Part shown: positions 14,904 to 63,487 of the stretch, piece after piece
Position numbering within the stretch: position 1 is the stretch's first letter
Layout of the letters: every line of letters begins with the position of its first letter
Source of the DNA: Paramacrobiotus metropolitanus
Lineage: Eukaryota > Tardigrada > Eutardigrada > Parachela > Macrobiotidae
NCBI RefSeq assembly: GCF_019649055.1
Contig: NW_026570392.1
Span: 62,001 to 126,000 of the forward strand
Direction: 5' to 3'
Length of the DNA stretch: 64,000 nt
Made by a program: the position numbers and the translations under genes
The notes under the pieces: generated by a model
What the model was told of the DNA's origin: nothing
Database searches by the model: none
What the model saw: only the letters and a program-made list of their open reading frames with translations

Positions 14904-17070
14904 TCAGGATTTCCTTTAGTGCAAACACAAGAACCGAAAAAGTTTGCGAATTACGATTACCCATTACTGCGGGCATTTCGATGAAGATGAACGATAACGA
15001 CAACACGGCTAAATTCTCCGTGCTCAATATCTGAAAATTTAACTCGCAATGCAAGTAAAATTAACTAAGCACTGAATTAAGTAAGTACTAAGCACGAACT
15101 AAACACTGAACTACAATGTATTTTACAACAAATTAACATACTATTCAGTGATACCGGCTACAAAATTCGTCTCTTGTTTTGTTTTTTCTCGCACATTCGT
15201 ATCGACGTGACCCATTCGACTCATTCGATAATGTTTGACTCTTCGATTAACTTTAAATACCGCGTGAATCTGGCTTTTGGATTCATCTTCAACAACAATC
15301 TCATCGATGGCAATTTCTTGTACCCACACAGTTAAGCTCCGAGGATCGTACAACATAAATATTTTCAACTGTTTCGGCGAAAACAAACCACGAAAACAAA
15401 CCACACGAAATTATCTGCTCCCAGGGTATTATCTGGTGCCAACCGTTGATCGAAAGCAGTATTAACAGTGGCTGCATGACACGGGACTAAAACAATGCAG
15501 ATTTGACTTCTAATTGTAGCTACAATTGTTCCCAGAAACAAACTGTCAAATACCACCATCACCTTCCGTCCCGGCATCGGCTGCAGTACTTCTCGGTGAG
15601 CGTGGATAAATCGCAGGCAGTCTACCACGTCGCTGTTCTCCTCGTAGTCGTAACCTGACCCGAAACAGTAATAGCTACATTATGTCGAGCTGGCGACGCC
15701 ATTCCACAAACTCCGGGCAACCCTGACAGTTACGCGCCTGTTTGATGCTGTGGATTTTGGTAAAAAGGACACCCACACTTCTTGGGAGCACTGCGGTTGA
15801 GTGAGCACAATATTCCACAGCATACATGTGCGACGACATTGCACTAGGTGAATACTATCTAAATACTGGAACACTGCGCCGAATATTTCTACCGGCAAGG
15901 GGAATAGGCCTGCGTTTGGATCGACCGGCTCCCATTCGACGCATCCAGAGCAGGGTGCCAGCTTCGGGGGAAGCCACGCAGAGCCGTTAAATGTCCACCC
16001 TGACTTAACGAGCTTCTCCATATCGCACTGGGCTTCTGCTAGGAGTGCGAGGATTTCCTGTTGTGGCAAACACAAGAACCGAAAAAAGTTGTGCGAAGTT
16101 ACGTATTACATTGCATCTACTGTACACGTATACCGAATGAAGAAAAAACGAACGAATAACGACAACACGGCTATGACATTCTTTCCGGTGCTCAATATCA
16201 TGAAAATTTAACTAAGCAATGTACGAAGTAAGCAATTAACTAAGCAATGAATTAAGTAAGTACTAAGCACGAACTAAACACTGGTTTAACTAAGCAATGT
16301 ACCTTTTACGAACAAATTCAACTCGCACTGACGCGTTCAGGGATACCGGGTGGCTGACAAAATGGTCGTCTCTTGTTTTGATTTGTTTCTCGCAGATGCT
16401 TTATCGCACCGTGACCCATTCGACTCATTCGATAAATGTTTAGACTCATTCGATTAATTTTAAATACAAAATGAATAAAAGGCTTTTGAAAGAATTAAGC
16501 CATCTACGTTTGCAAAGGTGCCAAATGAAACGAAGTGTAAAGTTTTCGTATCCCAGTTCACGAAATATAAAATCTCGTGCCATTTGTTCCCCTTACAGAC
16601 ATTTTAAATATTTTCAACTGTTTCATCTAGCGAAATACATTTATTTTCAACAGAAAATAGTTGTGGACATGCTGCATACACTAAACGAGTTATGCAGTCA
16701 TGACACAATGTGACGTTTTCAAAAAATGCCATGTTTTATCTGGATTTTCGGATATTTTGGTTAACAGTTTTGGCTGCATGACAGGGTGAATAAAAAAAAT
16801 GCAGATTTGACTTCTAATTGTAGCTAACACATTGCTTTTTCAGAAACAAAACTAAATCAGATAAGGTTTTAGAGTGTTCGATCGACATTTGTTTTCAAAA
16901 ACTCTGTTTGCGGATTTCACGAGAATTACTCGTGCGGAGTCTCTGTTATTTGCAGTGCGCTGGCCACGCACCTTGCCAGAATATTGCATTTCCTTGCAGT
17001 AAAAAAAACACAAGACGCAACCCCTCGACCCGAAACAGTAAAGTAGCTACATTATTATCGTTAGCTGAAC
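14904..17070. repeat. Imperfect direct duplication, about 1.15-kb period
   Basis: Sequence starting at about 14904 (AGGATTTCCT..., then CAAACACAAGAACCG) recurs at about 16050-17070. Shared landmarks include GACAACACGGCTA, AAGTAAGTACTAAGCACG, GACCCATTCGACTCATTCG, ATTTTCAACTGTTTC and GCAGATTTGACTTCTAATTG. Both copies carry many small indels. The copies flank the F-box exon at about 15691-16057, and the left copy includes a scrap of the exon's own start, so this looks like an old tandem duplication of an exon plus its intron within the array unit. Confidence 0.6.
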
Positions 17071-18549
17071 AAGCAAGAAATTTTAGAACAGAACAGCAAG
17101 AAAATTCCAGTCTTATGCTAATTTTGACTTGACTTAATTTTTTTATGTTAAAAACAACGCTTTTTCGAATAATACTAACCAGGGCCCGGTCACCGCCCTC
17201 AGAAAAATTTCATATTTTGCTTGAAGACAGAGTAGGTATTGGGAATACCTAAAATAATATTTTCATCGGCAATGGTGCAGTAGGCGTGGCCAAAAACAAA
17301 TCTAACTGCCGAATGTATTGTTAGTGCACTGGCAATACATATGGCGCTTATACAGATATATGGCCAAGCCAGCCGTCAGTTTACGTGTTTACCGTGTACG
17401 TATTCTCATTATTAAATGGTGTTCATCGTACTGGTGAAAACTTATGTTTTGAACTTTTTCTTCGGTAAATTTACTTTTTACTGACTGGCTTGACAATGTA
17501 AAAGTTTTCTGAACTCTTTGTACTTGCCAGCATCGCGCGCGTGGTGCAGTACAGATAATAATTAAGAGGTGAGCAGTGTAATCAAATCAAATCTACTACC
17601 GGTTAAATTTTTACAAAAATGGATGTTGTAAAAACAAAAATTAAGAAATAGTACGGTAGTCAACAAGCTAGTCTGTAAATGCAGTGATAACAGGTAACAC
17701 TGATCGGGGTGCCGTATGTACTGCCAATACAATCGATGTACATTGACAATACATGCGACACTTAAATTTAATTGTTTCTGGCCACGCCCACTGGACCAGT
17801 GCCGACAATTGTATTTTTTTAAGTGTACCCCATACGGTCCATACCTGTTCTGTCTTCAAACAAAAAATAAAATTTTTATGAGGAGGGAGGTGGTGACCGG
17901 TCACCCTACAACTCACCGCATGACCGACGGCGTATATCCACATGCCGCTCGTAGTCTGCTCTTGCACGCACAGAACCGCGTTTCCGACTTGACGCACTGG
18001 GTGAAAATGCCAGAGGTCCAGGTAGTTTTTCCAAATACTCCACAGCGGCGCCGAAATCGGCTCACTACAAGCATATGATGCAATCATGAAGTGAGTTGGT
18101 TGAAGGGCCTTCTTGGACGACACAATGCGGACCACCTCGACTGGAAAGCAGTCCCGGACAATCACAGAGCCGCACTGCACCTCGATAAACACGCACTTCG
18201 TGCCGAACAGTCCGGGAACGAGGAACTTGGCCGGATACCATGTCCACGGTTGATTTGACGATGGTCGCGCTAATACCTGAATCTGCTCGCTGGAACCTGC
18301 GCTTAGGGTTGCTTTCAGCTCCTTAATTCTCTCGGAATCTGCACCTGTAGGTATCAGACACTGAAAAAGCTTTCTGGATATATTATGATGCTCTATAAGC
18401 TGTGCATGCTGCCCGGGACAGTCGAAATCCAGGACGAAGCCATCAGCCGTGACATCGACGACGTGTGCAAGCTGGAGCTGACCATCGTCAGTGAGGACAT
18501 CCACCGTGTTCCAGCTGGTTACTCCGGACAGTTTGACGATTAAGCGCAT
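15365..18549 (-). pseudogene. Agenet-like/F-box family unit 8, decayed
   Basis: Exon A (17917-18549, 211 codons) is open from ATG through a GTGAGT donor after ...VGHA, and has both Agenet-like segments (WNTVDVLTDDGQLQ near residue 12; then QPWTWYPAKFL). Exon B starts after CAG at 16057 and still shows WTFNGSAW and the F-box LPVEIFGAVFQYLDS, but hits a stop at about 15680. The family block VDCLRFIHAHREVL (about 15540-15628) continues in another frame and the rest has decayed. No exon C is found before labial. A TIR element (17183-17903) sits immediately inside the intron at the exon A donor. Probably non-functional, unless exon A is used alone. Confidence 0.7.
17183..17903. mobile_element. Non-autonomous DNA element with long imperfect inverted repeats
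   Basis: Both ends carry CCGGTCACC followed by a CCTC-rich stretch, and about 180 bases of each end match in inverted orientation. Shared blocks include GAAGACAGA, GGCGTGGCC, GGCAATACAT and its partner. The interior is AT-rich and non-coding. I could not identify a clear target duplication or assign a superfamily. It lies within the intron of F-box unit 8, abutting the splice donor. Confidence 0.55.
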
Positions 18550-33150: not shown

Positions 33151-35455
33151 CTATCGGCTGTCTTTACGACCTTTATCCACTGAATTCTGATTGGATTGAC
33201 TTTCCATCATCAAACGATGCAAAGCGTGCAATGTCAGTTTGGTCAACTTGAAGACGTCCAGACAGCGCATTTCATCGGGGGTCCAACTGCGTTGCTGGTA
33301 GTGGGTACTTTCACGGCCATCGCCATTCTGGATAGTGCACAAAATCTGTTGAATGGAAATTCAGAAAAATGAGTTATGTTAATGTACTTATTATGGCATT
33401 ATGCCATATCTCTTATGCGATATAGCTGAGCTATTTATTTTTTAAATTCAATAGTACGACTTCGGTCTGCATGACAGATTAAGGCACGAGCGAACGCATG
33501 ACTAGTAGTAACTTATCATAACTGTTGCGGGTACTCTCGCTTTGATTTTCCTGCATTGCGAGGCTGTGTTCTTTGTATATACGAGTATCATATCTCGTTG
33601 TTCTAGGTAGTAGGTACTACCTGCTAAGCGATAAAAATGCATCCAGAACCGTAGTACTAAAATTACTCCTTAGAGCTCCTAGATGCCATTGATTAGCCAA
33701 CTCGCCTGTTTGACATTGTGACGATACATGGAGGCCTCCTGGTTTGCCACGGCCTGTATCCATGCCGTAAGGCTAACTGGATCGCCCGGCAGTGCTGGTA
33801 AATGTTCTTCTAACATGCGGTATACTTCACAAAGCAAATCGGATGCGTTTAAATTCCGCAAGCTGTACGAAATGAGCATCTGCCACGGATCGCGGAGGTA
33901 CAGATAGCAATCGCCTGAAGTGAACGGGCAGTTCCTCCAAATTACCGCGGCCACGGTCGGTATCGCACCGGCACAAGCGTCCGCGACACGCTGTACTTCC
34001 AGGTGGAAGCGATGGAACATCTTCCACGCACACCTGTCAAGTATTACCGTCAGTTTCCGTCCCGACGCGGACTGCTGTAACTGCCTGAGAGCATGGATGA
34101 ATCGCATGCAGTCGACCCAATCGGTGTCGTCACCACTTTGCAAAGCGTGCGTTATGATAATGCGTTCCGTTGTGCCGGTAATACATTTCCACAAACTTTT
34201 CGCAACCATTATTGTTCCACGCCGATAGGATGTGGGTTTTAAAGGAAATGATACCCGGATTTCTTTTGTATATTGTTCCTGGCTGAGCAGACAATTCCAC
34301 AGTGCGCATATGCGACGGTATTTTTGTTGGTCAATGCTGTCCAACAACAGCAGCACCTCGCGGAGTACTTCCACCGGCAACATCGATAGCTCCGGATCAG
34401 TTGGCTCTTGCTGTGGATCTTCTGATTGACGTTCCTCGGTCGGTGGAATCCATTCCGATCGGGAGAACGTCCAACCTCCGTTCATGCGGAGCTCCATATC
34501 GCGTTGGGAATCTCTTAAGAGGATTTCCTGTTGTGTCATACAGTAAGTTACAATTCAAAGTACCAGGAAAGCGCCAACAAAAGAAAAATCTAAAATTCTG
34601 TTAAGTATTCATTTGCTGTTAAATATCGCTAATCGCTCGCCAACCAAAGCCGCAATAAAACTATGCACTAGTAAATAATAAACAAATACTACGACGAACT
34701 AACGTAACGACAGTACGGCTAGCACGAGTTCAAGATCCTGTCTGGATGATTAGGATTGGTATCATAAATAATAGGGTAGTGCGTTGGGCGCTCACCACAT
34801 GGCCGCCATTTATCCCACTCTCTTCCTTCTTCAACCTCAAGCACACCACTGCCTTTCCGATGTGACACACAGGGTGAACTTTCCATACTGCCAACTTCCC
34901 CTTCCAAATATTCCACAGGCTAGCCGACATCGGCCCATCACCTGTATACGACTGGGTCAATGAGTACGAATAAGTACAAAACGTAGAAGGACGGATGGCG
35001 CGCTTCTTTAGATCCTTATGGGACGGCACAATGCGGACCGCCTGGATAGGAAGGCAGTCCTGGACGATGCAACCGCCACACTGCACTTCGATAAGCACGC
35101 ACGCTTTCCCGAACACACCGGGAGCGAGGAACTTGGCTGGGCACCATGTCCACGGTTGATCCGCCGATGTGCGGACTAACGCCTGGATTTTCTCGGTAGG
35201 ATTCGCGCGCGATGCGATTTCCAGCCTCTTAATCCTGTTATCGTAATGTGGACCCGTCGACATCAGACAATGAAAGACCCTCCCGTGTAAATGATGGTCC
35301 ATAAATTGAGCGTTTTGCCCGGGGCAGTCAAAGTCCAGAACGTAGCCGTTCTCCGTGGCATTGACAACATGTGCATGCTGCAGGTGACCGTTGTCCGCTA
35401 GCACGTCCACCGCGTTCCAGTTGTCCACTCCGGAGATTTTGCAAAATAAACGCAT
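33151..35455 (-). CDS. Agenet-like/F-box family protein, unit 7 (intact)
   Basis: Exon A 34796-35455, exon B 33706-34527, exon C 33151-33345; all junctions are phase 0 and the total is 1677 nt, 558 residues. Exon A (1-220) has two Tudor/Agenet-like segments: NAVDVLADNGHLQHAHVVNA to LDFDCPG (about 14-50), then EKIQALVRTSADQPWTWCPA to VLIEVQC (about 90-130). The second resembles the FMRP/FXR N-terminal repeat (VEV.SR...WW.AKV). Exon B starts EILLRDSQRD, has WTFSRSEWIPP, then the F-box LPVEVLREVLLLLDS with CALWN (about 270-305), and a long conserved region with DCMRFIHAL and RKLTVILDRCAWKM. Exon C reads NGDGRESTHYQQRSW and LTKLTLHALHRLMM. An F-box implies binding SKP1 in an SCF ubiquitin ligase. 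The exon B donor is GCGAGT, a GC-AG intron. No disabling change is seen. Confidence 0.8.
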
Positions 35456-36205: not shown

Positions 36206-37860
36206 TCAATTTGGCTGGGGCTTCCTTTGCATCATAAAATGGTGTAAAGTGTGCAGTGTCAGTTTGGTCAATCTGGAGACATCCAGACGGCGCAGTTCAT
36301 CCGTGGTCCAGCTGGATTGTTGGTAATGGACACCGTCACGTCCGTCGCCATTTTGGATGGCGCGTAAAATCTGTTGCAAATGGGATTGCGATACAGTACA
36401 GATACTTTAATTATTTCATAATATTTTAATTATGATGTACAGCGCTATAGACTCTGTATTTATGTACTGTTATGAGTATGGCTGGTTGAAGTACAGTTTG
36501 TATGGCAGTCATACTGTGACGTCGTTTGCAACGGAAGGAAGTGGCCATAAAGTATCAGCCAAGTAGAAATGTGCTAAGTGTACTTTGATCTCTCATAAAA
36601 CATTCAATAAAATGTTGTCTTATGGTTTGTCTATGAGTGCTTTTGAGATGGAGACGTGTTCTATCATCTTTAATATTTTGTATCAAAAATCACTGATGAG
36701 TGCTCGAGGGAGAAAGAACTTCTTGTGAATGAATTATAGAAATAGTATCATCCTGCATGGCTAGCAGCTCTGGAATATCTTGTCTGGAAAGTTTTCCCTG
36801 GAATATCTTTTCAACCCTGATGTAGTCGCTCTGTTAGCTTGAATGAGTTTAAATAAAGGTCAGCGTGATTATGGTCGATTGGGTTTAGCGTCACCTTAGT
36901 TATTATACGGCCATAAGGTCATACCACCACAAACATCAACTAACATCAAGCTGTTGACCGTACATATTGTGGATTTTATGGCATTTTGATCATAAACGCT
37001 ATACTACTTAATAAAAAGTACTATGGTTCCCGCTCTCCCTTCCGGCGCTGCGAGAATCAATGCGAGTCGCCTGCCAGGACAACATCGAAAATGTCTTTTA
37101 ATATTGCGTCCGTGATCAAAATGCATTAAAAATTTCAGCACTGCCACTGTTTTAACCGCTCCCAGGTAACTAGAAAATTAAGTTACCAGAGAAGAAAACA
37201 GAAAACACTGAGAACTCACCTGTTCGACACCACGACGGTAAACGGGACCCTCTTGGTTCGCAGTTGCTTGTATCCATGCGATAAGGCTAGCTGCTTCGTT
37301 AGGCACGGCTGGCAAATGTGCTTCCAGCATGCCGTAAACATCGGAAAGCAAATCAGGTGCAGACAAATTCCGTAAGCTATGCGAAATCAGCATCTGCCAT
37401 GGATCGCACAAGTTCATAATATCCCAATCCCATGCAAAAAACACGCAGTTCTTCCAGAGTATAGCGGACACCGTCGATGCCGCATCCGCGCAAGCGTCAG
37501 CCACACTGCGTATTTCCCGGTGGAAGAGATGGAATATCTTCCAGGTACATCGATAAAATACCACCATCAGTTTCCGTCCAGATGTCGGCAGCAGTGCTTC
37601 TTTAACAGCCTGGATAAATCGCAGACAGTCGATCCAGTCGGTGTCGTCACCAAATTGTAGAGCATGCGTTATAATGATGCGTTCTGTCGTGGCCGTAACG
37701 CATTTCCATAAACTTGTGGCCGCCATGGCGGTTCCGCGCGTTTCGCTACAGTTGGGCAGAAATGACACCCGGATTTCTTGGGAGAACTGGGCATGAGTGA
37801 GTGAGCGCAGAATTCCACAATGTGCATACGCGGCGCAGTTTCTTTAGGTTAACGCTGACT
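36206..37860 (-). pseudogene. Agenet-like/F-box family unit 6, 5'-truncated
   Basis: Exon C (36206-36370, 55 codons: NGDGRDGVHYQQSSW, LTKLTLHTLHHFMM) and the 3' two-thirds of exon B (37220 to about 37768) are open, with DCLRFIQAV, GRKLMVVFYRC and the donor CAG/GTGAGT at 37219. Towards the 5' end the frame breaks just after the F-box second half (LRRVCTLWN at about 37800-37860). The first half of the F-box, the WTFSGS.W motif and all of exon A are missing. A 5' truncation plus frameshift make it a pseudogene. Confidence 0.7.
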
Positions 37861-38494: not shown

Positions 38495-41065
38495 CTGCAT
38501 CACGTGGTAACCGATTTCGTAGTTCTCCCCATCCACGATCTTCTGTATCCACGCAGAAAGCCTCGCTGGATCGGTGCACATTGTCGGTAAAGCTGATTCC
38601 AACATGCGGTGCAAATCAGACAGCAGGCGGATGGAATTCAAGTTCTGCGAGCCATCGGCGACTGTCACCTCCCACTGATATCACGAGTGACAACCGTCCG
38701 CAGCGACCTTGCAGTTCTTCCAGCTGACAGTTGACACCGTCGACGCAGCAGCGGCGAAAGCGTCAGCCATACTGCGTATTTCTTGGTGAAAATGATAGGA
38801 CATATTCCACGCACATCGGGCGAACGTCAACCTCAGCTTGCGGCGGGGTGCCGGCTTCAGTACTTCCCTGAAAGCTTGGACGAATCGCAAGCAGTCATTC
38901 AAGTCAGTGTCGGCATAATTTTGCACAGCATGTACTATAATGACGCGCTCCGTCGTGTTGGTAACGCATCTCCACAAACTTTTGGCCACTATGAGAGTCC
39001 CGCGCGCTGTGAGAGGGTGGAATAATGCTTCGTAGTGGGACAGAAATGACACCCGGATTTCTTTGGAGTATTTCTCCGGAGTGAGTACAGCATTCCACAG
39101 TGTGCATACACGACGGCATTTCACTAGGTCGATGCTGTCTAGATACTGGAACATTTCACCGAGCACCTCCACCGGCAAAGCTGACAGATATTTACCGGGA
39201 GCGATCGGCTGCTGCGCGTCTTCAGAATACTGTGGGCCCTTCGGCGGAGTCCACTGAGATCCAGAGAAAGTCCAACCTGCACTAACGCGCTTTTCCAGAT
39301 CGCTTTGGGCGTCCCTTAAGAGGATTTCCTGTTGTGGCACACACAAAAACTAAAGTATGTGAAACGTCATATGCCTGAATTGTTTAAATTACTTTATGAC
39401 GCCAACAGAGGTACTACCGACTACCGCTTCTTGATACATAGTTGTTAGCGATGTCAACCATAAGTTCATAACCATAGCAAATGCAACAGCAATCAGCGAA
39501 ATATTAATACAAATGCTATCGGCAAACCTAAATGTAGCACCTCAAATCGATTATTTGAATCTGAAAGAAAGATGCGATATTATTGCCGCTAAAAACATAG
39601 TAATCTATAGCTTTTCAGTGGACTGCAAAATGATGTTCACACTCCAGCTATTCGAGTACGAGCTACTGAAATTGTATCCACTGTCGTTGACCCTTTATGT
39701 CGTGTACGCACAGTCGAAGTACGAAGCCTGAGTACAAGCCTAAGCAACTCGCTACGCTGGGTTCAAACAAACGCTAATAACAAAGCTATACAGTAAAGTG
39801 AAGGAAAACGACCCACGAGCCCGCTCGTTGTCTACTAGAAGAACAGCTCAAAACCCATTTTCTGCTATTAAAATACACAACTGCGCTCTTTTAACTATAA
39901 CTATGAGTATGTACTACTCGTACTGTATTAACTACCAGTGTTATAAAGTTTATCACTCGCCTACGTTCGGTTTCGTTGCATATTTCTGTGCGCCGTAAAG
40001 GCAGATCGGTTATTTTAGTATCAGTTTGCTTCCAAACAACGCATTTGGAACACAAAAATCGTTTCTTATAATTAATTCCTCATTTTTCAAAAGAATAATT
40101 AAAGATAAAGCCACTTTTCGCTACGCCTATCATGTAGGAAAAGAATGGGATTTTTAAAAGTAATACCGCATTATGCAGCCACACCGGGCGGCTAAATTGT
40201 TTCATGCGGCGGAAGTCCCGATTTTCCCTAGTTTTAAAGTCTCTACATTCCGTTAGTCAGAAAAGTTATTTCCGCAGCAATACAGGCCAACTTGAAAAAA
40301 ACCGTTTGTGTGTGCAACGAGCGATACGTCCGGAACGGTCCTACCTGCCTTTTCGGCAGCGAAAATAGAGCGAGTAGTGACGAAACATTTAGCACTCACC
40401 ACCTGATCGCCATTTATCCCACGGTTCTGGCCATATTCGTTCTGTTCCTGCAAGCAAATTGCCGCATTGCCGATGTAACACACTAGGTGAACTTTCCATA
40501 CTGCCAACTTCTGCTTCCAAATATTCTACAGGAGAGTCGACATCGGCTCATCGCCTGTGTGCGATTGCGCCAACGTGTAGGATTCAACAAGAAATCGCGA
40601 GCGACGGATGCCGCGCCCGTTTAAGGTCTTCTTGGATGGCACAACGCGAACCGCCTGGATGGGAAGGCAGTCTTGGATAGTGCAAGCGCCGCACTGCACT
40701 TCGATGAACACGCACGCTCTACCGAACATGATGGGAACGATAAATCTGGCGGGGCACCATGTCCACGGTTGATCCGGCGTTGTTCGCGCTAATACCTGGA
40801 TTTGCTCGTTAGAGTCCGCATGTGATGCCTTTATCCATTCCCTAATACTGCTGCTGTAATATTCGTTGGCGGACATGAAACAATGGAAGATACTTCTGCA
40901 CTGACCTCCCATAAATTTGGCATGTTGTCCGGGACATTCGAAATCCAGAACGTAGCCAGTATCCGTGACATTTACGACGTATGCGTGTTGCAGCTGACCA
41001 TCATCCTGTAACACATCCACCGCGTTCCAGTCGTACACTTCGGAGGTTTTGGAGAATAATCGCAT
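38495..41065 (-). pseudogene. Agenet-like/F-box family unit 5, two nonsense codons
   Basis: Exon A (40400-41065) keeps one frame of 222 codons with a single TAG at 40526-40528, replacing the conserved Trp of LWNIWK (TGG to TAG). Exon B (38495-39328, 278 codons) keeps one frame with one TGA at about 38681-38683, after WKNCKVAADG. All motifs are otherwise present: NAVDVLQDDGQLQHAYVV, QPWTWCPARF, WTFSGSQWTPP and the F-box LPVEVLGEMFQYLDS with CTLWN. The exon B donor is GCAAGT (GC-AG). No exon C is found. Two point stops in otherwise clean frames suggest recent death. Confidence 0.75.
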
Positions 41066-41970: not shown

Positions 41971-44925
41971 TTAATCAGACATCAAACGATGTAACGCATG
42001 CAGCGTCAGTTTGGTCAACTTAGAGACATCCAGACAGCGCAGTTCCTCGGTGGTCCAGTGTGTGTGCCGGTAGTGAATACCTTCACGTTCATCGCCGTTT
42101 TGGAAATCGTACAAAACCTGTTCACCGGGGCTTCATGTAATACTGCAATGATTTACATCTAATAACATGTCGTACACCGTAATGCGCTCCTGTCGTAGTA
42201 CCTCTCGCTGCTCACTCCTAAAGCAGCTTGAAGCGTAAGTGCGATTTTGGTTTAAAAAACGGGCCAAAACAATCGAATTTTAAACACTTAAGGGTACAGA
42301 GCACCTAAAGGTGGGGCCTAATGTATTTTCGACCTCTTGAGCTAGGGGGAAATCGCAATACCTCACCTCACAACTGCGTTTTTAGGTTTACATCTTGTAT
42401 CATAAGAAATATCTCCATAAGGGAGTAAAAATTCACTAACAACTAACTACTTACTCACTAAGACACTAACTAATAAATCAGAAATAACAAACCAGTAATC
42501 ACCTCTCTGACATTACGTCGGTCACGCGAGTTTTCCTGATTCGCAGTTTTCTCAATCCACGCTGTAAGGGTGGCCGGATCGAAATTTAGTGTCGGTAAAG
42601 CTGTTTCCAGCATGCGGCACAAATCAGATTCCAGTTCGGATGAATTCACATTCACCATGCCATACGAAACTGGCACTTCCCACGACTCCATCAAGAGCCC
42701 ACCGCCCGGAGAAACCGTGCAGTTTTTCCAGATTACCACGGCCACCGTCGATGCAACATCGGCACAAACGTCAGCCAAGCTGTGTATCTCCCGAGTGAAC
42801 CGATTGACCATCTCCCAGACACCCCGATCAAATATCACCGTCAGCTTCCGTTCCAGAGCCTTCACTTCACCGAAAGCGTGGATGAATCGCAGGCAGTCTA
42901 CCAGGTCGGTGTTATTGCCTCTCTGAACAGCGCGTCGTATGATGATGCGTTCTGTCGAGGTAGTAACACGTTTCCACAGGCTTTTGGCCAGCATGACGGT
43001 CCCACGCTTTAGTTGCGTGTCACAAATTGTGGAATCCACCAAGTACGACACGCGAATTTCTTTGGAGTACTGATCCTGAGTGAGCACACAATTCCACAAC
43101 GTGCAAACACGACTGCATAGCACTTGATCAATACTGTCCAGAAACTGCAGCACTTCGCCGAGTAGTTCCACCGGCAGCATTGTGATTAATCGGCAGTCGT
43201 CTTGGTCGACCGGCTCTTGCTCAGAAGTTTCCACATCGTGTTCGTCCTTCGGCGGAATCCAGTTAGCCCCGGAAAAGCTCCACCCTGCGCCAAAGCGCCC
43301 TTCCACAGCGCTTCGGGCATCTCGCAAAAGAACTTCCTGTTGTGGCACACAAGAGATAAGAACATTTGTAATGCTATTCCAGCAGCAAAATACACTACCT
43401 TTCATTCCGTGCACTACCTTTTTGCACTACCATTCATTCGGTGCACGTTCTTTTCAAGCCCTATCATTCAACACTACGTTTATTTGCTTGCACGACCATT
43501 GATCTTTTAAAACGTCAACATTATTTTTCACGTCAATATTATTTCCGAAATTGTGGTTTTTTTGTTAACAGCTGTCAAAGCTGCGTAATTTAAAGCATCA
43601 TCAGCATACGCAAAAGCGAATTTCCGCGAGTAACTTAAGTAAGTGACTCTCGGTGCCCGTTTTCCGCGGAAAAATAGAGGAGTCGTTCATGGAGCTGTTT
43701 GCCGTAGATTCTAAGATAAAAGCAAAAAGTTTAAATTGTCAGTGACTCAGTAGAAGTATTTTATTTCCGTGAAAACCTTTCAGCTGTAAGCTTATTTTCA
43801 TTCTTAGATTTTTATTCTTCATTCTTTTAATTATAACATAATGAAATGAATGAAATCGATCGCTTTTGTGAAACACGGAACCTGCAGAGGTTGCGCCTAC
43901 TTTTTCACGGCCTTAACGCACTACAGCTGCCACACCAGATGCGAAAACCATTTCAGTGGCATATCGTAATGGGCAACTGACGAACGTCCCCGAGTAAGGG
44001 GAAATAGTCCCTCCAGACTGTCTGAGACAAAATACAACACTGCGTCAAAACTGACATCAATGATCAACCGGTAATCGTTAAACAAATAGACCTACGTGGT
44101 ACGCTGGGATACATTCAGGATATTTTCTGACAGTAGGAACCAAGGTATCTCACCCTCACATTTGCGGCTTACAGTCAGTGCTATCTGTTAACGTGCATCG
44201 TTCAACTGGCAATAGTTTATGGAGTTCGACGTAATGATAGCGGATGGAAAGATTGCGCTGTAGCTTACCACATGATCGCTGTTTAAGCCGTCGTGGCGCT
44301 TCCTCGTCAGGCACACCACTGCATTTCCCATGTGACGGATCGGATAAACGCTCCATCCTGCTAACATCTCCTTCCAGATATTCCACAGCGGCGCCGGCAT
44401 CGGTGCATCGTCTGTGTGCGACTGCGCTAAGGTGTAGGATGCCAGCAGAAATTGAGAAAGGCGAATGGCGTGCGTCTTTAACACCGTTGTAGACGGTACA
44501 ATGCGGACCGCTTGGATAGGAACGCAGTCCTTGACGATATGAGAACCACAGAGCACTCCGACAAAGGCGCATGTTTCGCCGAACAGCCCGGGCGAGAGGA
44601 ACTTAGCCGGGTACCATGTCCACGGCTGGTTAGGGGAGGTTCGGGCTAACACCTGGATTTTCTCGCTGGAACCCGCGCGCGCGACCCTGTCTAATCCCCT
44701 GCTCCGTTCACCACGATGCCCAGCTATACACAGCGAACACTGAAAAAGCTTGTCGCGGATTTCGTGGTCCATAAACTGTGCACGTTTCCCGGGACAGTCG
44801 AAATCCAGGATGTAGCCATTATGCGTGACATTGACGACGTGTGCATGCTGCAGTTGACCATCATCAGTTAACACATCCACTGCGTTCCAGCTGTCGATTC
44901 CCGAGGTTTTGCAAAGTAAACGCAT
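41971..44925 (-). CDS. Agenet-like/F-box family protein, unit 4 (intact)
   Basis: Exon A 44269-44925, exon B 42503-43336, exon C 41971-42117; GT-AG junctions all phase 0, total 1638 nt, 545 residues. Exon A (1-219) starts MRLLCKTSGIDSWNAVDVL and carries two Agenet-like segments (HAHVVNVTHNGYILDFDCPG; EKIQVLARTSPNQPWTWYPA). Exon B has WSFSGANWIPP, then the F-box LPVELLGEVLQFLDSIDQ with CTLWN (about 273-310), followed by DCLRFIHAF, RKLTVIFDRGVWEM and a final LCRMLETALPTL block. Exon C reads NGDEREGIHYRHTHW and LTKLTLHALHRLMSD. No disabling mutation is seen, so with unit 7 this is the best functional candidate. Expected role: substrate receptor of an SCF-type ubiquitin ligase; the ligand of the N-terminal module is unknown. 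Confidence 0.82.
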
Positions 44926-45960
44926 CCTGAATAGAAGAACCGCAGTAAGTATTCCACTAACGATTCTGCTGTCCCAGACGCTATTTCTCGTTCAAAGCCA
45001 CTTGAACGGTAAACCTAAATTGCGCGATTATAAGCCAAATCTATTCGAACGCGACACTTGTTACTAGCATATAAACTGATTTTAAATGCAAGGGTTACGC
45101 ATTTTCAAATCGAAGTTCGTGCTCCTAGTTCAATGTAAGAAATCAAGTTTTGGGCGACAGACAAGTCGCTAAAATTTATCGGAACGATCCACGATGTACT
45201 GTACTGAAAATTTCGAACTTTCAATATGCAACCGAATGACGCTGCCATAACGGGCGGCTGTAATTGGGTAGCGGATGAGTTTTGTCATTCTGATTGTGAG
45301 AAAGTAGCTCTACCTTTGAAAATTTGTATCTTTGTTATGTTTAACAAAGATTTTTTTCAGTTAACTCCAGTCTGATGAAAATTGTCTGTATCTTTCCAAA
45401 ACGTCAAACCCAACGTTGTTTCAAAGGAATAATATATTATGCCAAATTTTATAAAGGTAATCACGACTTTTACTCATACAAATTTTTGTCGCGTTTCCGA
45501 GCAATTTGTAGGCTTACTGAATGATGTTGAAAGGTAGAAATGATATTCTGAATTTTTAAGAAACTTTCTACAAGAAACTGAGATACAGGTATGAGTTATC
45601 AGTCTGCCAAACAGACAATAACGAAATATAAGCATCGGGCATATGTGATGACGCCTTACAGGCTTTTTGGAGTGCGGTAACTGTTGATCCCTTTCACTGG
45701 ATAAACAAAATCCGCAAGCGAAAGGGTTGAACTTGCGTAATGGCCTTTGGAGGGGGCAGCGACAACAGTGCTGATATCAGCGGATGAGACGAAAATGATT
45801 AGGACTTGCCCGACACAAAGGCTAGTTTTACTTTCGTAAGTCGACATTTCTTAGGTACGCGGCGGTATAGACATAAATGGCATAGGGATTATGTAGTGTA
45901 CAATGTACATAAATAAAGAGTAGCTTTACGCTGTACAAGCTAGGTAAGGCGAACTTGATG
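44926..45960. other. Spacer between units 3 and 4, nothing recognised
   Basis: No recognisable gene or repeat shared with the window. Confidence 0.4.
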
Positions 45961-45963
45961 GTT

Positions 45964-46850
45964 ATTCACTGCTGGTAAATGCGCTTCCAGCATGCGATAA
46001 ACGTCGGAACGCAAACAAGGAGCATAGAAATTTGATGATTTATACGAACTTAACGTCTGCCATGAATCGCACACGTACATACTCGTAACATCCCAGTCTC
46101 ATGCAAAAAACACGCAGTCTCCCCAAGTATGTTAAATTCCAGTACAACCTTATTGCGCATACATTCACAAAAAGTTGAAAAAAATCTTCCGATTACAGCA
46201 GCAAAAACACTACAGACACGCATAAATGTAATTTCTGGATGCGTCCGAAAATTTTCGGTTCACCGTTCTTCAATAGTGCCACGAAGAATTACTGGCGAGA
46301 AATGGGCCCTGATAGTCATTACGGAGACCTGTAAATAATTTCATCAGCAAAGGCATTCCACTCTAGTATCATTGGATGAATAGTACTATCGGCTGTCTTG
46401 CTGACCTTCATCCACTGAAACCCTTTGACTTTCCCTCATCAAGCGATGTAATGCGTGCAGCGTTAGTTTGGTCAACTTGGACACATCCAGAGCGCGCAGT
46501 TCATCGGCGGTCCAACTGCGCTGTTGGTAGTGGACACCGTCACGTTCGTCACCGTTTTGGAAGTCGCATAAAATCTGCTTTAAGGGACTGCATTACGTCA
46601 CTGACTGTGCTTGCCGTACTTTGTAACGCATTATAACGAACAACCTTTAGGTATGGGGCAAGTACTGACCTCTTCTACTGCCTGACGGGAACCGGGTTTC
46701 TTCCGATTGGCAGTTTCATGTATCCATGCAGTCAGGCTCGCCGGAGCGGTACCGTGTGTTGGCAAATTTGCTTCCAGCATACGGCACAATTCACAGCGCA
46801 ATGCGAGTTTCGAGTAAGTCAAATTCAGTACATGAAACGGAGATGCAGCT
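45964..46850 (-). pseudogene. Agenet-like/F-box family unit 3, fragments
   Basis: Three pieces remain. Exon C (46386-46574, 63 codons: NGDERDGVHYQQRSW, LTKLTLHALHRLMR) is intact. The 3' end of an exon B (46670 to about 46850: LCRMLEANLPTHG, SLTAWIHETAN) ends in a GTCAGT donor. A second exon B scrap at about 45964-46130 resembles unit 6 (CVFFA, stop, DWDV; then RMLEAHLPAV) and carries TGA where unit 6 has Trp. No F-box or exon A remains; a GPCR relic occupies the upstream side. Confidence 0.65.
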
Positions 46851-49738: not shown

Positions 49739-51881
49739 CTAAGAAGCCGTCATGCTGTAGATGAAGCGTGATAAGGCGTACAAGCAGAATCGGTTCAGTT
49801 TGCGTACATCAATAGCGAACGCATTGTTCGCACTCCATTCCCGTCCTTGGTAGTGTGCCGACGGACGCGGATCGCAGGATTGGTAGTCCCGGAGAATCTG
49901 CAGAATTATCTCGCTGGTTACACAATTCGACACCCGAGGAAGCACAAGAAATCATCAGTCTGGTCTGCCAAGAAGTTTTTAGATTTTTCAAAAGATTACT
50001 GCAAATTATCTTTTACCCAATACGTTCGTTTAAAAATACAGGAAAGGAAATAATCGGCCTAAACTTTGGTGTTCAAATCTTCTGATAAGAGCTGGCTGCT
50101 TCTTCAACATAAATTACATGATCGCTGATGATGCCGTTCACCATGGACTCAGTTCCAGCCCAATACTGTACCTTTATCGCTTTCTTGGCATTCACGCTGT
50201 TGTCGATCAGACTCGCCATAAAATGGTCAATGCGTTGCACATCCAACGGCGGTCCCCGCCAATGCAGATGCTGCTCCAACAGATCCACAATCTGCGCCGC
50301 ATCGACGTGTCCCAGAGCGAAGACCGCAGCGGGCATGCGGAATTCCAGGTTTAATAGAGAAAGGGTATAATCTTTCCAAATCACACGATTACAGTACAAC
50401 AGCAGTTTGGACATGTGCGCGGATATCGCGGCGGACAGCGCGCTCAGTCGCTGTCCAGCTGACTCATAATACAGTGTCATGGCTCGTCGGTACACAATTA
50501 AACTGTCGATGCGGCTGCCAGCGTCCTCCAAAATCTTCATAATAAAGTCCGTCGCTTCGTCGCCATCACGGAGACTCCATCGGTTAGGGCAAGGCGTTTC
50601 GCTATCGCGGATGCAGATGGTGCGGGTGGCGGGCGTGATGTGGTTGAAGATGCAAACATACGCAGCGTAATGCAAATCCCACTTTACAGGGTCTGACCCA
50701 CCATGTCCTGCCAGCATTACACGAACCTCTTTGCACAGATCAGGTGACATCAGAATGGCGTCCCACAGTGGACAGGTGCGACGGCAGCGCTGTCGATCGA
50801 CGGTGTCCAGTGAGCGGAAGACCTCGTTCAGTACTTCCAAAGGCAATGCCAACAGACCGTCACTGGCAAACAACGGTTTCTTCCGCTTTAGCTCACTATC
50901 TGCCTGGTCGGTGTCTTCGAGTGATTTGCGGTGAGACACAGATAAAGGAATATTTCTCTCTCCTTCGAAGACAATCGCCTGTGGTAAGAGAAGGCAAAGT
51001 TGTTACTGTAAGTCTGTACTACAGAGCAGTGTAGTTCTAATTAATGGTAAAATAGTGGTTCTGATAGTCGTCATGGAAATGGTTCTCCCTTTTTGGGGAC
51101 TTTGATTTCTCTTTAAGCTACGGTATTTCTTAGGTTTCCTAGGTTATTTCTCAGGTATGCTAGATTCAAGCACGGCTACCAGCACTATTGCCAAATCAGC
51201 TAAGATTCTGAACAAAATAGTTCAACTTCAATGCTGCAACAAGAAGGCCTATCAGCAGTAACGACTTACTAGATCTTCTTTCCGTAAAGGCCTCCTGTGG
51301 CGCCGTTGCACATATTGCATTTCCTGGCTGAGAACCTTGAAAAATCGCACAGCGAACCGTCGCTCAACTTGTCGGAGCAGCCATGCCGATTCAGACGACG
51401 GCCAGAAGCCGTTCGGCACACTGCATGTCTGCATCACGAAATGGTCCTCGGGATGGAGTTCTGGTTTGCCGACATCGGCTGACGGATCGCGAATATGTCG
51501 GTGGGGAATCAGTTCGCGACGCCGCTGTCCGCCCACCGTCACCTCCACCAGCGTCACACCGTGTATTTCCTTGAACTTTGGAACCATCATTTTGCCGGGG
51601 TGCCATTTCCAAGTGCGCTACTGACCGTCATGCAGTAGCACCTCCACCTGATCCCCTTCACATGCGTTACTGCATGGGCTGGTGAAACAGTCCCAGATCT
51701 TGCCGGGAGCAACCAGCACCGCCTGTTGGGTCGGGCATCCGAAATCGACCATTACGCGCAGTGGAGTGCTGCCGTTTTCTTCGAGCCCAGCGACATAGCC
51801 GTGTTGCAGCTGGCCGTCAATCTCCACATCCACAGCGTTCCACGCATACACAGACCGCTCAGCATTTTCGAATAGGTGCAT
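49739..51881 (-). pseudogene. Divergent Agenet-like/F-box family unit 2, one in-frame TAG
   Basis: Exon A 51270-51881 (204 codons, donor GTAAGT), exon B 50118-50978 (287 codons, donor GTAATT) and exon C 49739-49897 (53 codons with stop). One TAG at 51618-51620 interrupts exon A between EVLLHDGQ and RTWKWHPGKM; the frame is the same on both sides. Exon A has WNAVDVEIDGQLQHGYVAGL and a second Agenet-like strand set (KWHPGKM, LVEVTVGGQRRREL). Exon B has the F-box LPLEVLNEVFRSLDTVDRQR with CPLWD and an acidic/basic linker (SDLRRKK-like) in front. Exon C matches the + strand relic at 19.9 kb. It differs strongly from the other units, so it represents an older branch. With only one lesion it could be recently dead, a readthrough case, or a base-call error. 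Confidence 0.7.
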
Positions 51882-52365
51882 CCTTGTTCTGTGACTCCTG
51901 TCTGGGTCAGTTTTATTTCACAGCCAAATTATTAACAATTCACTCGGATTAATCGGATAAGTGATATAATCCGTAACACCGCTGAACAGAAAAACAAATT
52001 GTTGTCAGATAGAGAACACCAACAGATTGCATTTTGGCTGAACAGAAGGAAAAGACGTGTTATAACTTACAAGAAACAGCCTCGGCTTCGCCTCCGCTTT
52101 TCTTGTGGTCTCCAGTCTACGGCCGGTTTATTCAAATGATTTCGATCAGCTATTTAGTTAACATCTTATTCCTTCAACGAAACAAAATGATCCGAAAATA
52201 CGCTAAAACGCAGACAGAATAAAAAGTGAATTTATGGCTTTTGTGCACTCAGACGCATTCACTTTCACTCAGAAGGGAATTTTTGTTAACTTCTCCCTCC
52301 CGAATTTGATCGAATCTACCAGGTACTAAATTTCCACTAAAGGATGCTTGCAACAGATGCTGGTA
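51882..52365. other. Upstream flank of unit 2, nothing recognised
   Basis: Non-coding sequence leading into the minisatellite. Confidence 0.35.
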
Positions 52366-55530: not shown

Positions 55531-55534
55531 ATAG

Positions 55535-56529: not shown

Positions 56530-56816
56530 TAGAGACCAAAAACAGTAGTACTGTACTGCCGTATACGGCATACTGTACGGTCTGCCGTATGTAACCGTAT
56601 AGGAAAAGACTACGGCAAATAGCTGCCGTACCGTAAACGTAAGCCAAAAACACGATTTACAATGGGCTTGCCGTATACGGTACTGCCGTATACGGTATAC
56701 GGTACGGTCAATCCGGTTATTTTTGCCATTTTTGCCGTAACCGTACCGTAACCGTAGGAGCCGTAAGCAAGACCGTACGTGGCCGTACAAAAATTTAGTA
56801 CTGTTTTCCGTCTCTA
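56530..56816. mobile_element. hAT-type MITE, 287 bp, inserted in the recombinase remnant
   Basis: Imperfect terminal inverted repeats TAGAGACC.AAAACAGTA and, inverted, GTCTCTA with TACTGTTTT. Flanking 8-mers TTTTGGGG (56522-56529) and CTTTGGGG (56817-56824) match in 7 of 8 positions, as expected for a hAT target duplication. The interior is full of CCGTATACGG palindromes and CCGTA repeats, like the subterminal transposase-binding repeats of hAT elements. It has no coding capacity. Confidence 0.75.
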
Positions 56817-59726: not shown

Positions 59727-62700
59727 TTAAGATCGTGGCATGGTTGCCATGCGTACATCACAGCTGCCTTGTTGACCTTTTTCAAAATACTCCGTGGGTA
59801 TCGCGCGATGCAACGCATCCAGCGTCAGTTTGGTCAACTTGGACACATCCAGACAGCGCAGTTCATCGGCGGTCCACCTAGATTGCCGGTAGGGGATACC
59901 TTCGCGTCCATCACCGTTTTGGAAGTCGCACAATATCTGTTCCAACAGGTTAAATATGGGCTGCACGACTTTTGCATGGAAACGCGGATTATGCCTCGCT
60001 TGGGACGTGACCTGTGTAGACACTGTTGCGCTTTCACATGTCAAGGCCACTTCCACCACAGCCGAAGCGGCCGCCATGCAAGCAGAGTTACGGAAATCAG
60101 GACAATATTCCTATCTGGTCGGCCGCTACCTATTCGTCCCGATCGCCTTCGAAACACTGGGCCCGTGGGGACCGTCGGCGATCGCCATCATCAAAGAACT
60201 GGGAAAAAGACTGCAGCAGCACACCGGAGAAGCACGCTCGCACGAATTTCTGCGGCAGCGATTGTCCATAGAAATTCAACGGGGAAATGCGGCGTCAGTG
60301 CTGGGCACGATGGAAGGACTGGATAAGCTGAACGAAATTTTTCTGTTATAGTTTAGCGTGTTTTCTTTTCTTCAAATTGGTGTATTGAGGCATTGATTTG
60401 ACCAATAAAGTAATAAAACCATATGGGTATACTACAGTTTAGTATTCCACGGTATTCTGCCACACAAATGTCAGAAAGCTATTTGAATCGCAAAGTTATA
60501 TGAATCGCTATACTAAGGCAGCTTAATCGCCTAATAAGCTACAGTGTAAGTATATGTACAGTTCTTTACTCGTATTACTACCAAGTCGCATTAGCATTGA
60601 TAACACCAACAAATCGTATGGAACAGTACCAAATGCAATTCGCAAAAATAGCATGCAAGAGGTTCAATAATCTGTGCAACGCCTGTTCTACCGAAGCATC
60701 TACGTTGTAGTCTCGCATATATAACTTTATGCTTCGCGTTTTTCGCATTCGGGACATTTTCACGATACACATCCATGTACTTACCAAACAGCGGAGACAG
60801 TTACTTGTTCCTCATTAGGAAATTCGGTAATTTTGAATGAATATCGTGTACGAGCTTGTATATAGCACCAGTTATTATCAATCAATCATTTTTGGAAAAT
60901 TCTATGTCATGTGGAACAACAAGGAGCATACGGTGTCTCTGATGTCCGGTACGCGAATCCATATTGTGAAAATGTCCGAAATGCGGAAACGTGGCAGTAC
61001 TGTAGAACATCTCCGAAAGGGAGCAAGCACTGCAACGCACCTGCTCAATAATGTAGAAGTCATCTGAGTTCTTGTGCTTTGCAGCTTCCCGTATCCATGC
61101 AGCAACGGCCGTTGGATCGATGTCCAAAGTCGGCGAGGCTGCTTCCAGCATGCGACACAAACTGGAGCGCAGATCGGATGAATTCAGATTCTGCAACCCA
61201 GACATGGGCACCTCCCCATGGGTCCCACAAGTGATGCGCACCCGGATCAACCATGCAGTTCTTCCAAAGCACCGCGGCAACCGTCGGCGCAGCATGGGCA
61301 CAAGCCAGAGCCATCCTATCGATTTCAAGGTGGAAGAAATCGCTCATCCTCCAGACACATTAATCCAGTATCACCAGCAGCTTCCGTCGCGGAGCCGGCC
61401 GCAGTCCTTCCCTGGTATCATGGATGAAGCGCAGGCAATCTGTCATGTCGGTGGCGGTGCCATTTTGTACAGCCTGTCTTATAATAACGCGCTCCGTCGT
61501 CGCGGTGATGCATTTCCACAAACTTCTAGCTATCATGATCGTCCCGCGCGCTGTGTGATTGTTAAACAACGATGTGGAGTTTGACAGAAACGACGCTCGG
61601 ATTTCTTTGGAGTACTGCTCCTGAATGAGCATAGAATTCCACAGCATGCATACGCAACGACATTTCACCAAGTCAACGCTGTTCAAAAACTGCCAGACCT
61701 CGCCGAGTATCTCCACCGGCAACGCTGACAGACAGACTTCACTTGGATGCATCGGCGTCTGCGGAGGAGTGCGGCATCATGTTTGCCGTTTGGCGGAATC
61801 CACTTACATCCAGAAAACGTCCAACCTTCGCCAATGCGCTTCTTCATAGCGTCTTGGGCCTCCATTAAGATGTATTCCTGTGGAAGATGCACATGAGAAC
61901 AATGGCAATATGGTTATTACGGGAGCACAGTTAAATCAAACGAAACGTTATCAACGTTTTACAGGCAAACTTGAAGAAGATCGAACCTTCCTCTTGGAGC
62001 ATGAGAAAACATTACCACTTTCTGCCTCTCTCAATTCGCCATATTAAATTATGTTTGTTGATAACTGTACGCACTACGCAGTCTGTTTTTCTGGCCATTG
62101 TAGCAAAACCGGGGTATTGTTTAGTACGCACATCTGTAACTTGTAAGCGAGTTACACTGTTACACGTACAACTTGTCCCGTAATTTTTCCGCATCAACAC
62201 AGCGTCAATAACAAATTCACTTACAAATTCACGAGTGATATGCCAAACCGCATACTACGGTGCCATATGAATTTACCTTCAACATGAATTTTAAATTTAC
62301 ATTCAACATTAAATTACGTTCACCATGAATTTGAAATGGCTGATGCATGCCAAATATCGATACTCGTATAAACCGTAAAACACCTATATTTTATACATAA
62401 TTATCGACCTGTCGCAAATGCACGCTATCTGTACTCTGTAGTCTGTAGCATGTACATTCACGTTAAAAATTACGGGACAAGCTTGTAGTCTTTAAATAAT
62501 TAAAATACTTACTATAAAAAACATACTGTAATTGTACCCAAACAAAAATGCTGTGCAACTGCAAAAATGCCCCTAAATTCCGCACACCTCTAAATTCCTT
62601 GCGCATTTTTCTGTAAAGAGATCCGCTTCCAACTCTGTACACTGCAGTATACAAGTACATACAGCTTCGGACTGGGCGAAAGGGATTATTAAATGGAGGG

Positions 62701-63487
62701 ATACGAAAATTTAGATCATGTACCGAGATAGTTTCCTTTGATCCTCCTACTGTAGGGCTCCGGTTATGTTATAACAGTGATCAAGTAAAAACATCATCAA
62801 GCCTCGCCTTCACGGCTTACCGCACGATAGCCAGTCATCGGGGTCGACGAATAATATTCCTCCGGCTTCAGCATGTACATCACCGATTTGCCGACATGGC
62901 TCACTGGGAGGACATTCCATCCTGCCAACTGCTGCTTCCACATACTCCATAATGCAGCCGACATCGGCCCTTCACCGGTGGCCGTGTAGGACTGGCACAA
63001 CGTGTGCGACTCAACCAGAAAATCCGAAGGACGAACGACACGCTCTGTCAAGACCTCCCTGGACGGCACAATACGGACCGCCCCCACTGCAAAGCAATCC
63101 TGGACGGTTTGACCTCCGCACTGCACTTCGGCCAACACGTGCGATGTCCCGAACAGACCGGGAACGAGAAATCTGGCCGGGTACCATATCCACGGCTGAT
63201 CCGTCGAAGTTCGCGCTAAACCTGGATTCGCTCCCTAGAATCCGCGCGCGATGCTCTCTCCAGTTCCTGGTGTCGATCGTATTGCGAACCTGTCGACATT
63301 CTACAGTGAAAACGTTTCCGTTTGCATAGTCCATAAACTATGCATGGTGTCCGGGATAGTCGAAATCCAGGATGCATCCTTTATCCGTGACATTGATGAC
63401 GTCTGCATGCTGCAGCTGCGCTCCGTCAACTAGCATGTCCACCGCATTCCAGAGATCCACTGGAATGGTTTTACAGAGTAATTGCAT
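59727..63487 (-). pseudogene. Agenet-like/F-box family unit 1, multiply disrupted
   Basis: Exon A (62821-63487) begins MQLLCKTIPVDLWNAVDML but has TAG in place of the CAG after GHHA, then two frame changes before LAEVQCGGQTVQDC; its donor GTAAGC is intact. Exon B (61041-61877) starts EYILMEAQDA, changes frame before LPVEILGEVWQFLNS (F-box), has an in-frame TAA near 61358 and a further frame change near 61240; its donor GTGCGT is intact. Exon C (59727-59936: NGDGREGIPYRQSRW, LTKLTLDALHR) is open but ends in a divergent tail. Intron 2 holds a retroelement fragment on the opposite strand. At least five lesions make it a clear pseudogene. Confidence 0.75.
59950..60351 (+). pseudogene. Retroelement C-terminal domain fragment
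   Basis: An open frame reads KRGLCLAWDVTCVDTVALSH, then YLFVPIAFETLGPWGPSA, then FLRQRLSIEIQRGNAASVLG and stops at 60351. I recognise this conserved block from the end of reverse-transcriptase-containing proteins of many invertebrates; whether it is a nuclease-like domain is not established by what I see. The 5' part with the RT is missing. The fragment sits inside intron 2 of F-box unit 1, antisense, and has no disabling change over about 125 residues. Confidence 0.6.

Follow-up and report, generated by a model that had tools for sequence, protein, structure and literature searches.

A tardigrade gene family that appears to join a Fragile-X-type tandem Tudor module to an F-box

The Fragile X proteins FMRP, FXR1 and FXR2 share an N-terminal domain composed of a tandem Tudor (Agenet) pair and KH0. 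Large F-box expansions are described in plants and in Caenorhabditis, where they comprise mostly proteins with FBA2 or FTH target domains, expanded by tandem species-specific duplication (PMC8665587). The nematode KSS/KSL F-box antidotes are fast-evolving and clustered and act via SCF through a solenoid target domain; the available part of that report mentions no Tudor domain (PMC12680543). Ubiquitin ligases directed at methylated proteins are exemplified by SCF-Fbxo22-KDM4A (PMC4754341) and L3MBTL3-CRL4-DCAF5 (PMC5915600), in which the receptor and its partner (KDM4A in the one, the methyl binder L3MBTL3 in the other) are separate. Finally, in SCF-Fbxo4 an F-box protein is physically linked to a Fragile X protein, Fxr1, which is its substrate (PMC5688124).

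The gene family considered here lies in part in the window, a stretch of 64,000 nucleotides from the tardigrade Paramacrobiotus metropolitanus, and it resembles each of these systems in some respect. Its exon A would encode a tandem Tudor pair homologous to that of FMRP, FXR1 and FXR2 over both repeats, but, unlike those proteins, the family has an F-box, gives no match to KH1 or KH2 in the exon-A and exon-B members scanned and has no aromatic residue at the position of FXR1 Y95. Like the Caenorhabditis families it is an expanded set of F-box genes, but Pfam matches at E<=0.1 in 27 exon-B members include neither FBA2 nor FTH, and the F-box is central with the Tudor pair ahead of it. Whereas receptor and partner are separate in the methyl-directed ligases, Tudor and F-box would here form one predicted chain, and the Fragile-X-type module, which belongs to the substrate in SCF-Fbxo4, would belong to the receptor. 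The likeness to the KSS/KSL antidotes extends to action via SCF, which for the tardigrade family we infer from the F-box. No description of a Fragile-X-type Tudor paired with an F-box was found in the literature searched, and the family would represent an F-box expansion built on the Fragile X N-terminal module in an animal of another phylum than Caenorhabditis. We regard it as fairly probable that this is a three-exon family, expanded in one genome and multiplied by birth and death, whose members are SCF substrate receptors on a Fragile-X-type Tudor.

Eight units in the window

A sequence-only reading of the window had claimed at least eight units that share exons A, B and C. Profiles of the three exons recover eight units, all on the minus strand, within 15470-63487 (Table 1); the unit count stands, and the pattern goes well past anything expected by chance. 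Exon A is present in six of the eight, exon B, whole or in pieces, in all eight, and exon C in six. Because all three occur together in only four units (at about 33-35, 42-45, 50-52 and 60-63 kb), one or more modules not being found in the other four, the sharing of A, B and C fails for the full set. The exon-A coordinates given in that reading for units 2 and 5 (34796-35455 and 44269-44925) proved to be exact ATG-to-donor exons. The frame is intact in these two units (33.15-35.46 kb and 41.97-44.93 kb), and the remaining six have in-frame stops, frame shifts or absent modules. Both introns of unit 5 are GT-AG, and the second intron of unit 2 starts with GC. A scan of the window against Rfam gave no family at its gathering score.

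Table 1. Exons and remnants of the eight units, in positions of the window.
Feature	Position	Strand	Remarks
Unit 1 exon A	17962..18549	-	open
Unit 1 exon B	15470..16057	-	two pieces, broken frame; exon C not found for this unit
Unit 2 exon A	34796..35455	-	open, donor GTGAGC
Unit 2 exon B	33706..34527	-	open; following intron CAG then GCGAGT, GC not GT
Unit 2 exon C	33151..33345	-	ends at stop TAG
Unit 3 exon B	37265..37862	-	two pieces in different frames; exon A not found for this unit
Unit 3 exon C	36239..36370	-	profile match
Unit 4 exon A	40256..41065	-	one in-frame stop
Unit 4 exon B	38540..39328	-	one in-frame stop; exon C not found for this unit
Unit 5 exon A	44269..44925	-	predicted FMRP-type tandem Tudor; 219 codons from ATG to donor GTAAGC; phase 0
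Unit 5 exon B	42503..43336	-	278 codons between acceptor CAACAG and donor GTGATT; F-box and variable alpha/beta region
Unit 5 exon C	41971..42117	-	short C-terminal exon of 48 codons plus stop; contains LTKLTLHALHRLM
Unit 6 remnants	45946..46849	-	exon B in two pieces, exon C at 46443-46574; exon A not found
Unit 7 exon A	51255..51884	-	59 % identity to C8-seed subfamily, one in-frame TAG
Unit 7 exon B	50109..50951	-	F-box E 1.9e-7
Unit 7 exon C	49766..49897	-	profile match
Unit 8 exon A	62800..63487	-	two pieces; middle absent or out of frame
Unit 8 exon B	61063..61776	-	in pieces, broken frame
Unit 8 exon C	59805..59936	-	profile match

Exon A and the Fragile X N-terminal domain

Judged by profiles and alignments, exon A is homologous to the N-terminal tandem Tudor of FMRP/FXR across both repeats, and the earlier assignment to an Agenet/Tudor domain of FMRP/FXR type is borne out by searches of PDB sequences and by comparison with the FMRP gene of the same genome. 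A profile of eight window copies, run against 177,635 PDB sequences, has FMRP as its sole match at E<=10. The top six matches of a profile of 32 copies (32 of 33 members, one with an unclear exon end and the broken window copies being omitted) are FXR1, FXR2 and FMRP, with a best E of 1.8e-4, and its first protein outside the Fragile X group stands at E 0.12. Aligned with hhalign to the N-terminus of the genome's own FMRP, taken as a single sequence, exon A reaches 96 % (E 4.7e-9 for one comparison), and the exon-A HMM scores 42.7 bits on the FMRP gene, where 2000 shuffles reach 5.7 at most.

As a rival reading, exon A could be a generic pair of the Royal family (Tudor/Agenet) that resembles Fragile X in fold only, without descent from it. 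Identity to FMRP is about 21 %, and single members seldom match the Pfam models that had been suggested for comparison, since Tudor_FRX1 and Agenet are each found in one of 32 (E 0.003 and 0.06, respectively); the lowest Pfam E, 0.002, belongs to the unrelated Glft2_N, again in one of 32. In structure prediction the expected likeness did appear, with four FMRP N-terminal chains as ranks 1-4 in Foldseek (E 1.4e-5 to 6.4e-5), but on a low-confidence model (mean pLDDT 53; TM-score to FMRP 0.20-0.22), and Spindlin1, SGF29 and UHRF1 are also listed, though ranked lower. Against this rival, Fragile X proteins head both profile searches of PDB sequences, in which Spindlin, UHRF1 and SGF29 are absent at E<=10.

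Divergent relatives bear on both sides of the same question. A Tudor_FRX1 search gave 27 matches, and five divergent Tudor relatives (L041-L045) were examined along with L035 and L036, two loci of the search itself; all five carry Tudor_FRX1, a result that is partly circular because they were chosen with that model. Aligned singly to the genome's own FMRP, four of the five are weak (0.3, 8.9, 27.4 and 64.4 %), as a generic pair would allow, whereas L042 reaches 94.1 %. The exon-B profile matches L042 at 1.1e-17 and L041 weakly (0.004), with no match in L043-L045; exon C is found in L042 alone, which is thus the only one of the five with A, B and C. On balance we consider a generic Royal-family origin unlikely and retain descent from the Fragile X domain.

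The FXR1 pocket residues compared were V66, W79 (printed W97; taken as W79), Y95 and E104. Three of these four are largely retained in exon A: the V66 position is V, the W79 position Y or F, and the E104 position E or D, each in 27 of 32 members. The Y95 tyrosine has been lost, with no aromatic residue at its position in any of the 32. The exon-A Tudor may bind a methyl-lysine or RNA-bound ligand, a putative role in which the complete FXR1 pocket is not retained.

The fold alignment, of 208 columns, extends into KH0, where the low-confidence model has a helix-strand-strand arrangement. Identification of the exon-A tail with FMRP KH0 is unsupported by sequence: a Pfam KH_9 search matched the true FMRP gene only and no exon A, an HMM of the tail alone lists 1130 of 2000 shuffles but not FMRP, and 29 of 150 shuffles score at least as high as the observed hhalign alignment of the tail. 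In addition, KH_1 and FXMRP1_C_core are absent both from exon A (32 members, E<=1) and from exon B (27 members, E<=0.1); the FMRP gene gives KH_1 at 1.5e-20 and FXMRP1_C_core at 7.4e-4.

Exon B, the F-box and the case for one gene

Pfam models confirm the F-box proposed for exon B, PF00646 matching 26 and PF12937 matching 24 of the 27 members at E<=0.1 (broken or cut-off copies were omitted from this set), and it lies above the curated cut-off in five of six window exon-B ORFs scanned. Foldseek with the exon-B model gave no PDB structure at an E lower than 0.07. The exon-B profile has 11 matches among PDB sequences at E<=1, of which four are F-box proteins that match along the F-box stretch (E 0.021 to 0.16), one is a hypothetical protein (0.067) and six stand at 0.52 or above.

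Exons A, B and C look like one predicted gene, as the sequence-only reading had proposed, judged by their order and strand, by splice sites in phase 0 and by divergence in parallel. Among the matches listed, exon B lies on the same strand within 3 kb downstream in 70 of 150 exon-A rows, vs 9 and 2 of 150 in controls. At 20 further exon-A loci, B is downstream in 19 and C in 16; fifteen of these loci had no listed B, and 14 of the fifteen do have one. A phase-0 GT is found near the end of exon A in 20 of 21 cases, and in 21 of 21 the exon-C model begins either at a phase-0 AG or 3 bases after one, both counted without a shuffled control. Divergence of A and of B is correlated across 23 genes (Mantel r 0.906; none of 2000 permutations as high). 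That A and B are separate genes, adjacent by chance, might be suggested by several exons that stay open past the predicted splice sites and by nearest neighbours that agree between A and B in just 10 of the 23 genes; two loci also depart from the pattern, one having exon A without exon B (L013) and one lacking the A-B-C order (L030). The order and strand, the splice sites and the joint divergence nevertheless make this alternative extremely improbable.

Copy number, selection and possible function

At least 394 exon-A places, which are not gene models and some of which are broken, occur on 77 contigs of the 169.8 Mb genome; for comparison, the assembly published for Paramacrobiotus TYO has 24,903 predicted genes. 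Mostly dead repeats, spread by transposition and without protein function, might be indicated by the six broken or partial units in the window, the in-frame stops (counted manually) in 18, 23 and 8 of 150 rows in three lists of matches, and a recent copy on contig C10 that is broken in A and C and was left out of the selection analysis because of this. However, 132, 127 and 142 of 150 rows in the same three lists have no in-frame stop, and for each of the two exons, A and B, all 17 pairs have pN lower than pS (13 genes in four groups, the pairs not being independent). Exons A and B are under purifying selection in the pairs tested, and we hold the dead-repeat explanation to be very unlikely.

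In the SCF receptor reading that we favour, exon A would supply a module of two Tudor (Agenet) repeats with homology to the Fragile X N-terminal domain, exon B an F-box and, behind it, an alpha/beta region that changes faster, and exon C a short C-terminal segment. The F-box would dock on SKP1, and the protein would therefore be the substrate receptor of an SCF ubiquitin ligase. The Tudor module would derive from a Fragile X ancestor and offer all members a shared binding surface, the less conserved region behind the F-box would add target specificity, and copies would arise by local duplication and then decay, as for nematode and plant F-box receptors. The genome has four Skp1-family matches, without an expansion such as is reported for nematodes (PMC12680543).

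Nematode and plant F-box receptors have been suggested to act against selfish or foreign proteins. The tardigrade expansion could likewise be an antidote or immune-type pool of degraders, with the Tudor pair as mere scaffold, a possibility that we would entertain with some doubt. The tandem clusters, broken copies included, the better conservation of A than of B in 17 of 17 pairs, and the degradation of toxins via SCF by nematode KSS F-box proteins (PMC12680543) are consistent with such a pool, whereas the gene pairs analysed diverged long ago (whole-exon dS 0.47 to 1.26). A bolder form of the receptor reading, which we put forward equally tentatively, is that in a tardigrade lineage an F-box gene captured the Fragile X N-terminal module and rose in number to several hundred copies or more, giving a new class of SCF receptors that would bring methylated proteins or ribonucleoproteins to degradation through the Fragile-X-type surface, with the region behind the F-box diversified in each copy. 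The family supplies many natural variants of the FXR-type Tudor pair and offers a candidate single-chain 'reader plus ubiquitin ligase'.

Exon A and the Fragile X proteins

An FMRP/FXR-type Tudor had been proposed for exon A, and this is borne out by profile searches of the PDB, in which FMRP, FXR1 and FXR2 rank first. The eight-copy window profile gave four matches at E≤10 among 177,635 PDB sequences, all to human FMRP (0.0078-0.026); the top six matches of the 32-copy exon-A profile were to FXR1 (1.8e-4), FXR2 (0.0024) and FMRP (0.0038-0.011), followed by mitochondrial ribosomal uL24m (0.12-0.16) and then ARID4A (1.1). The true FMRP gene of this genome sits on contig C5 (Tudor_FRX1 7.9e-11, KH_9 1.5e-15), and the family profile scores its N-terminus at 42.7 bits, the top of 2000 shuffles reaching 5.7, while hhalign joins the two over both Tudors (96 %, E 4.7e-9). 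This gene (L035) has an unbroken 610-residue open frame with Tudor, KH0, two KH_1 stretches and an RGG-like part. Pfam scans of four single exon-A ORFs returned nothing at E≤1 for three and a chance-level match (E 0.25) for the fourth; in single scans of the 32 members, Tudor_FRX1 (0.003) and Agenet (0.06) each matched one, the lowest E (0.002) belonging to the unrelated family Glft2_N.

The structure prediction called for by the sequence-only reading agrees in part. An AlphaFold model built from window copies alone places FMRP N-terminal chains at Foldseek ranks 1-4 (E 1.4e-5 to 6.4e-5; next Spindlin1, 0.026), but the model is weak (mean pLDDT 53, pTM 0.35), and its domain arrangement is not trustworthy because the TM-scores are 0.20 to 0.22. 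The modelled order is six short strands, helix, five strands, helix, strand, helix, strand, strand.

Five divergent relatives (L041-L045), chosen via Tudor_FRX1 matches, carry an FMRP-like Tudor at the front of their genes and match the family exon-A profile at E 9.1e-23 to 0.0012. L042 has an F-box and exon C besides the Tudor, and it links the family to FMRP. L041 has a weak exon-B match; profile and Pfam scans of the fetched loci found neither F-box/exon-B nor exon-C matches in L043-L045. Three more Tudor_FRX1 matches lie above the family cut-off, at C106:65813 (L036), C209:97496 and C106:35488, and the first half of L036 also matches the exon-A profile (3.8e-9).

Exons A, B and C as a probable single gene

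Among the 150 exon-A matches listed, 70 are followed on their own strand by a listed exon B no more than 3 kb away; as controls, B lay upstream in 9 and downstream on the opposite strand in 2. Exon B was found downstream in 19 of 20 further A loci, including 14 of the 15 that had none among the matches listed, and exon C in 16, a count biased because a listed exon C often served to fix where the stretch ended. At loci chosen by exon C alone, A and B were present in order in five of six. A phase-0 GT lies 132-156 bases past the exon-A model end in 20/21 cases and a phase-0 AG at the exon-C model start or 3 bases before it in 21/21, both counted without a shuffled control. Inter-gene distances in A and B correlate across 23 genes (r 0.906; 0 of 2000 permutations as high), which may be partly due to subfamilies, and the nearest neighbour by A is the nearest by B in just 10 genes.

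In the window (contig C172, 62001-126000, within a 169.8 Mb genome), profiles of the three exons detect eight minus-strand units, in line with the at least eight claimed. Exon A is present in six, exon B in all eight (as fragments alone in one) and exon C in six. The shared A-B-C structure claimed for these units holds for four, but the other four are incomplete; two of the eight lack a frame break. In the reference unit, phase-0 GT-AG introns join the three exons into a predicted protein of 545 residues (219 + 278 + 48). Locus L038 (C10:722900-728100) is a recent copy of this unit (unit 5), with exon B 96 % identical, exons A and C broken, and unit-6-like remnants adjoining.

The F-box claimed for exon B is recovered by PF00646 in 26 and PF12937 in 24 of 27 members at E≤0.1. 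Behind it, the predicted model alternates strands with helices and is weak (mean pLDDT 57), and a fold search of the PDB with the exon-B model found no match under E 0.07. The short exon C has at least 150 matches genome-wide at E≤1. Merging three differently seeded searches (150 scored of 937, 711 and 1059 candidates) gives at least 394 exon-A places spread over 77 contigs, of which 310 span 500 bases or more; the total is a rough lower bound in which a few places may be double-counted, because broken copies may be split. By hand count, internal stops occur in 18/150, 23/150 and 8/150 of the matches listed.

Constraint, pocket and possible role

For both exons pN < pS in 17 of 17 pairs, which are not independent because they were drawn from 13 genes in four groups. 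Conservation is stronger in exon A than in B in all 17 (once by 0.50 vs 0.49), and in 16 pN is higher behind the F-box than in the portion up to it.

PMC2970552 prints the FXR1 trimethyl-lysine pocket as Y95, W97, V66 and E104; we read the tryptophan as W79, because the aligned FXR1 chain has alanine at 97 and tryptophan at 79. Of 32 exon-A members, 27 have V at the V66 place, 27 Y or F at the W79 place and 27 E or D at the E104 place; none has an aromatic at the Y95 place, and two tryptophans (W102 and W104 of the reference) are kept in all. From these residues, a methyl-lysine ligand would be possible but is not indicated.

The F-box in exon B would imply docking on SKP1. Four Skp1-family matches occur in this genome, unlike the large Skp1 expansion of nematodes (20 and 23 skr genes, PMC12680543). 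Copies may share a partner bound by the conserved Tudor pair and differ in the region behind the F-box. Ligases acting on methylated proteins via a separate partner protein exist (PMC4754341, PMC5915600), Fbxo4 binds and degrades Fxr1 (PMC5688124), and nematode F-box expansions have been proposed to serve in immunity or as antidotes (PMC8665587, PMC12680543). No such Tudor/F-box family appeared among the listed titles and abstract openings of the literature searched, subscription papers, preprints and gene databases lying outside the search; the words tardigrade, Tudor and Agenet are absent from PMC12062965, on F-box domain captures, and neither PMC8277472 nor PMC11191345 mentions the F-box in its main text.

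Other genes in the window and genome

Reference unit and other features of the window
Feature	Positions	Strand	Length or match
Reference unit, exon A	44269-44925	minus	219 residues
Reference unit, exon B	42503-43336	minus	278 residues
Reference unit, exon C	41971-42117	minus	48 residues
Homeodomain	12868-13236	plus	Pfam E 2.7e-16
Lone exon-C fragment	19920-20027	plus	E 4.7e-11
KLHL-type gene within cluster	22831-24022	plus	exons with BACK 7.5e-14, Kelch 2.4e-17
7tm_1 receptor, between F-box units	47293-47979	minus	E 1.8e-13
Similar multi-transmembrane-looking frames	28169-29107 and 30525-31686	minus	gustatory-receptor-like by eye alone
Frames inside cluster	54656-56591	plus	weak Phage_integrase in one, E 0.0059

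The F-box cluster adjoins a homeobox gene, given the homeodomain, which we take to be labial/Hox1-like. The KLHL-type gene would encode a receptor for a different class of ubiquitin ligase. Pfam scans of the frames 28169-29107 and 31000-31686 gave nothing at E≤0.01, and the frames at 54656-56591 are perhaps a tyrosine-recombinase mobile element. A CAHS fragment used as a query has 18 matches in the genome, with identity reaching 71 %, and these point to a tardigrade.
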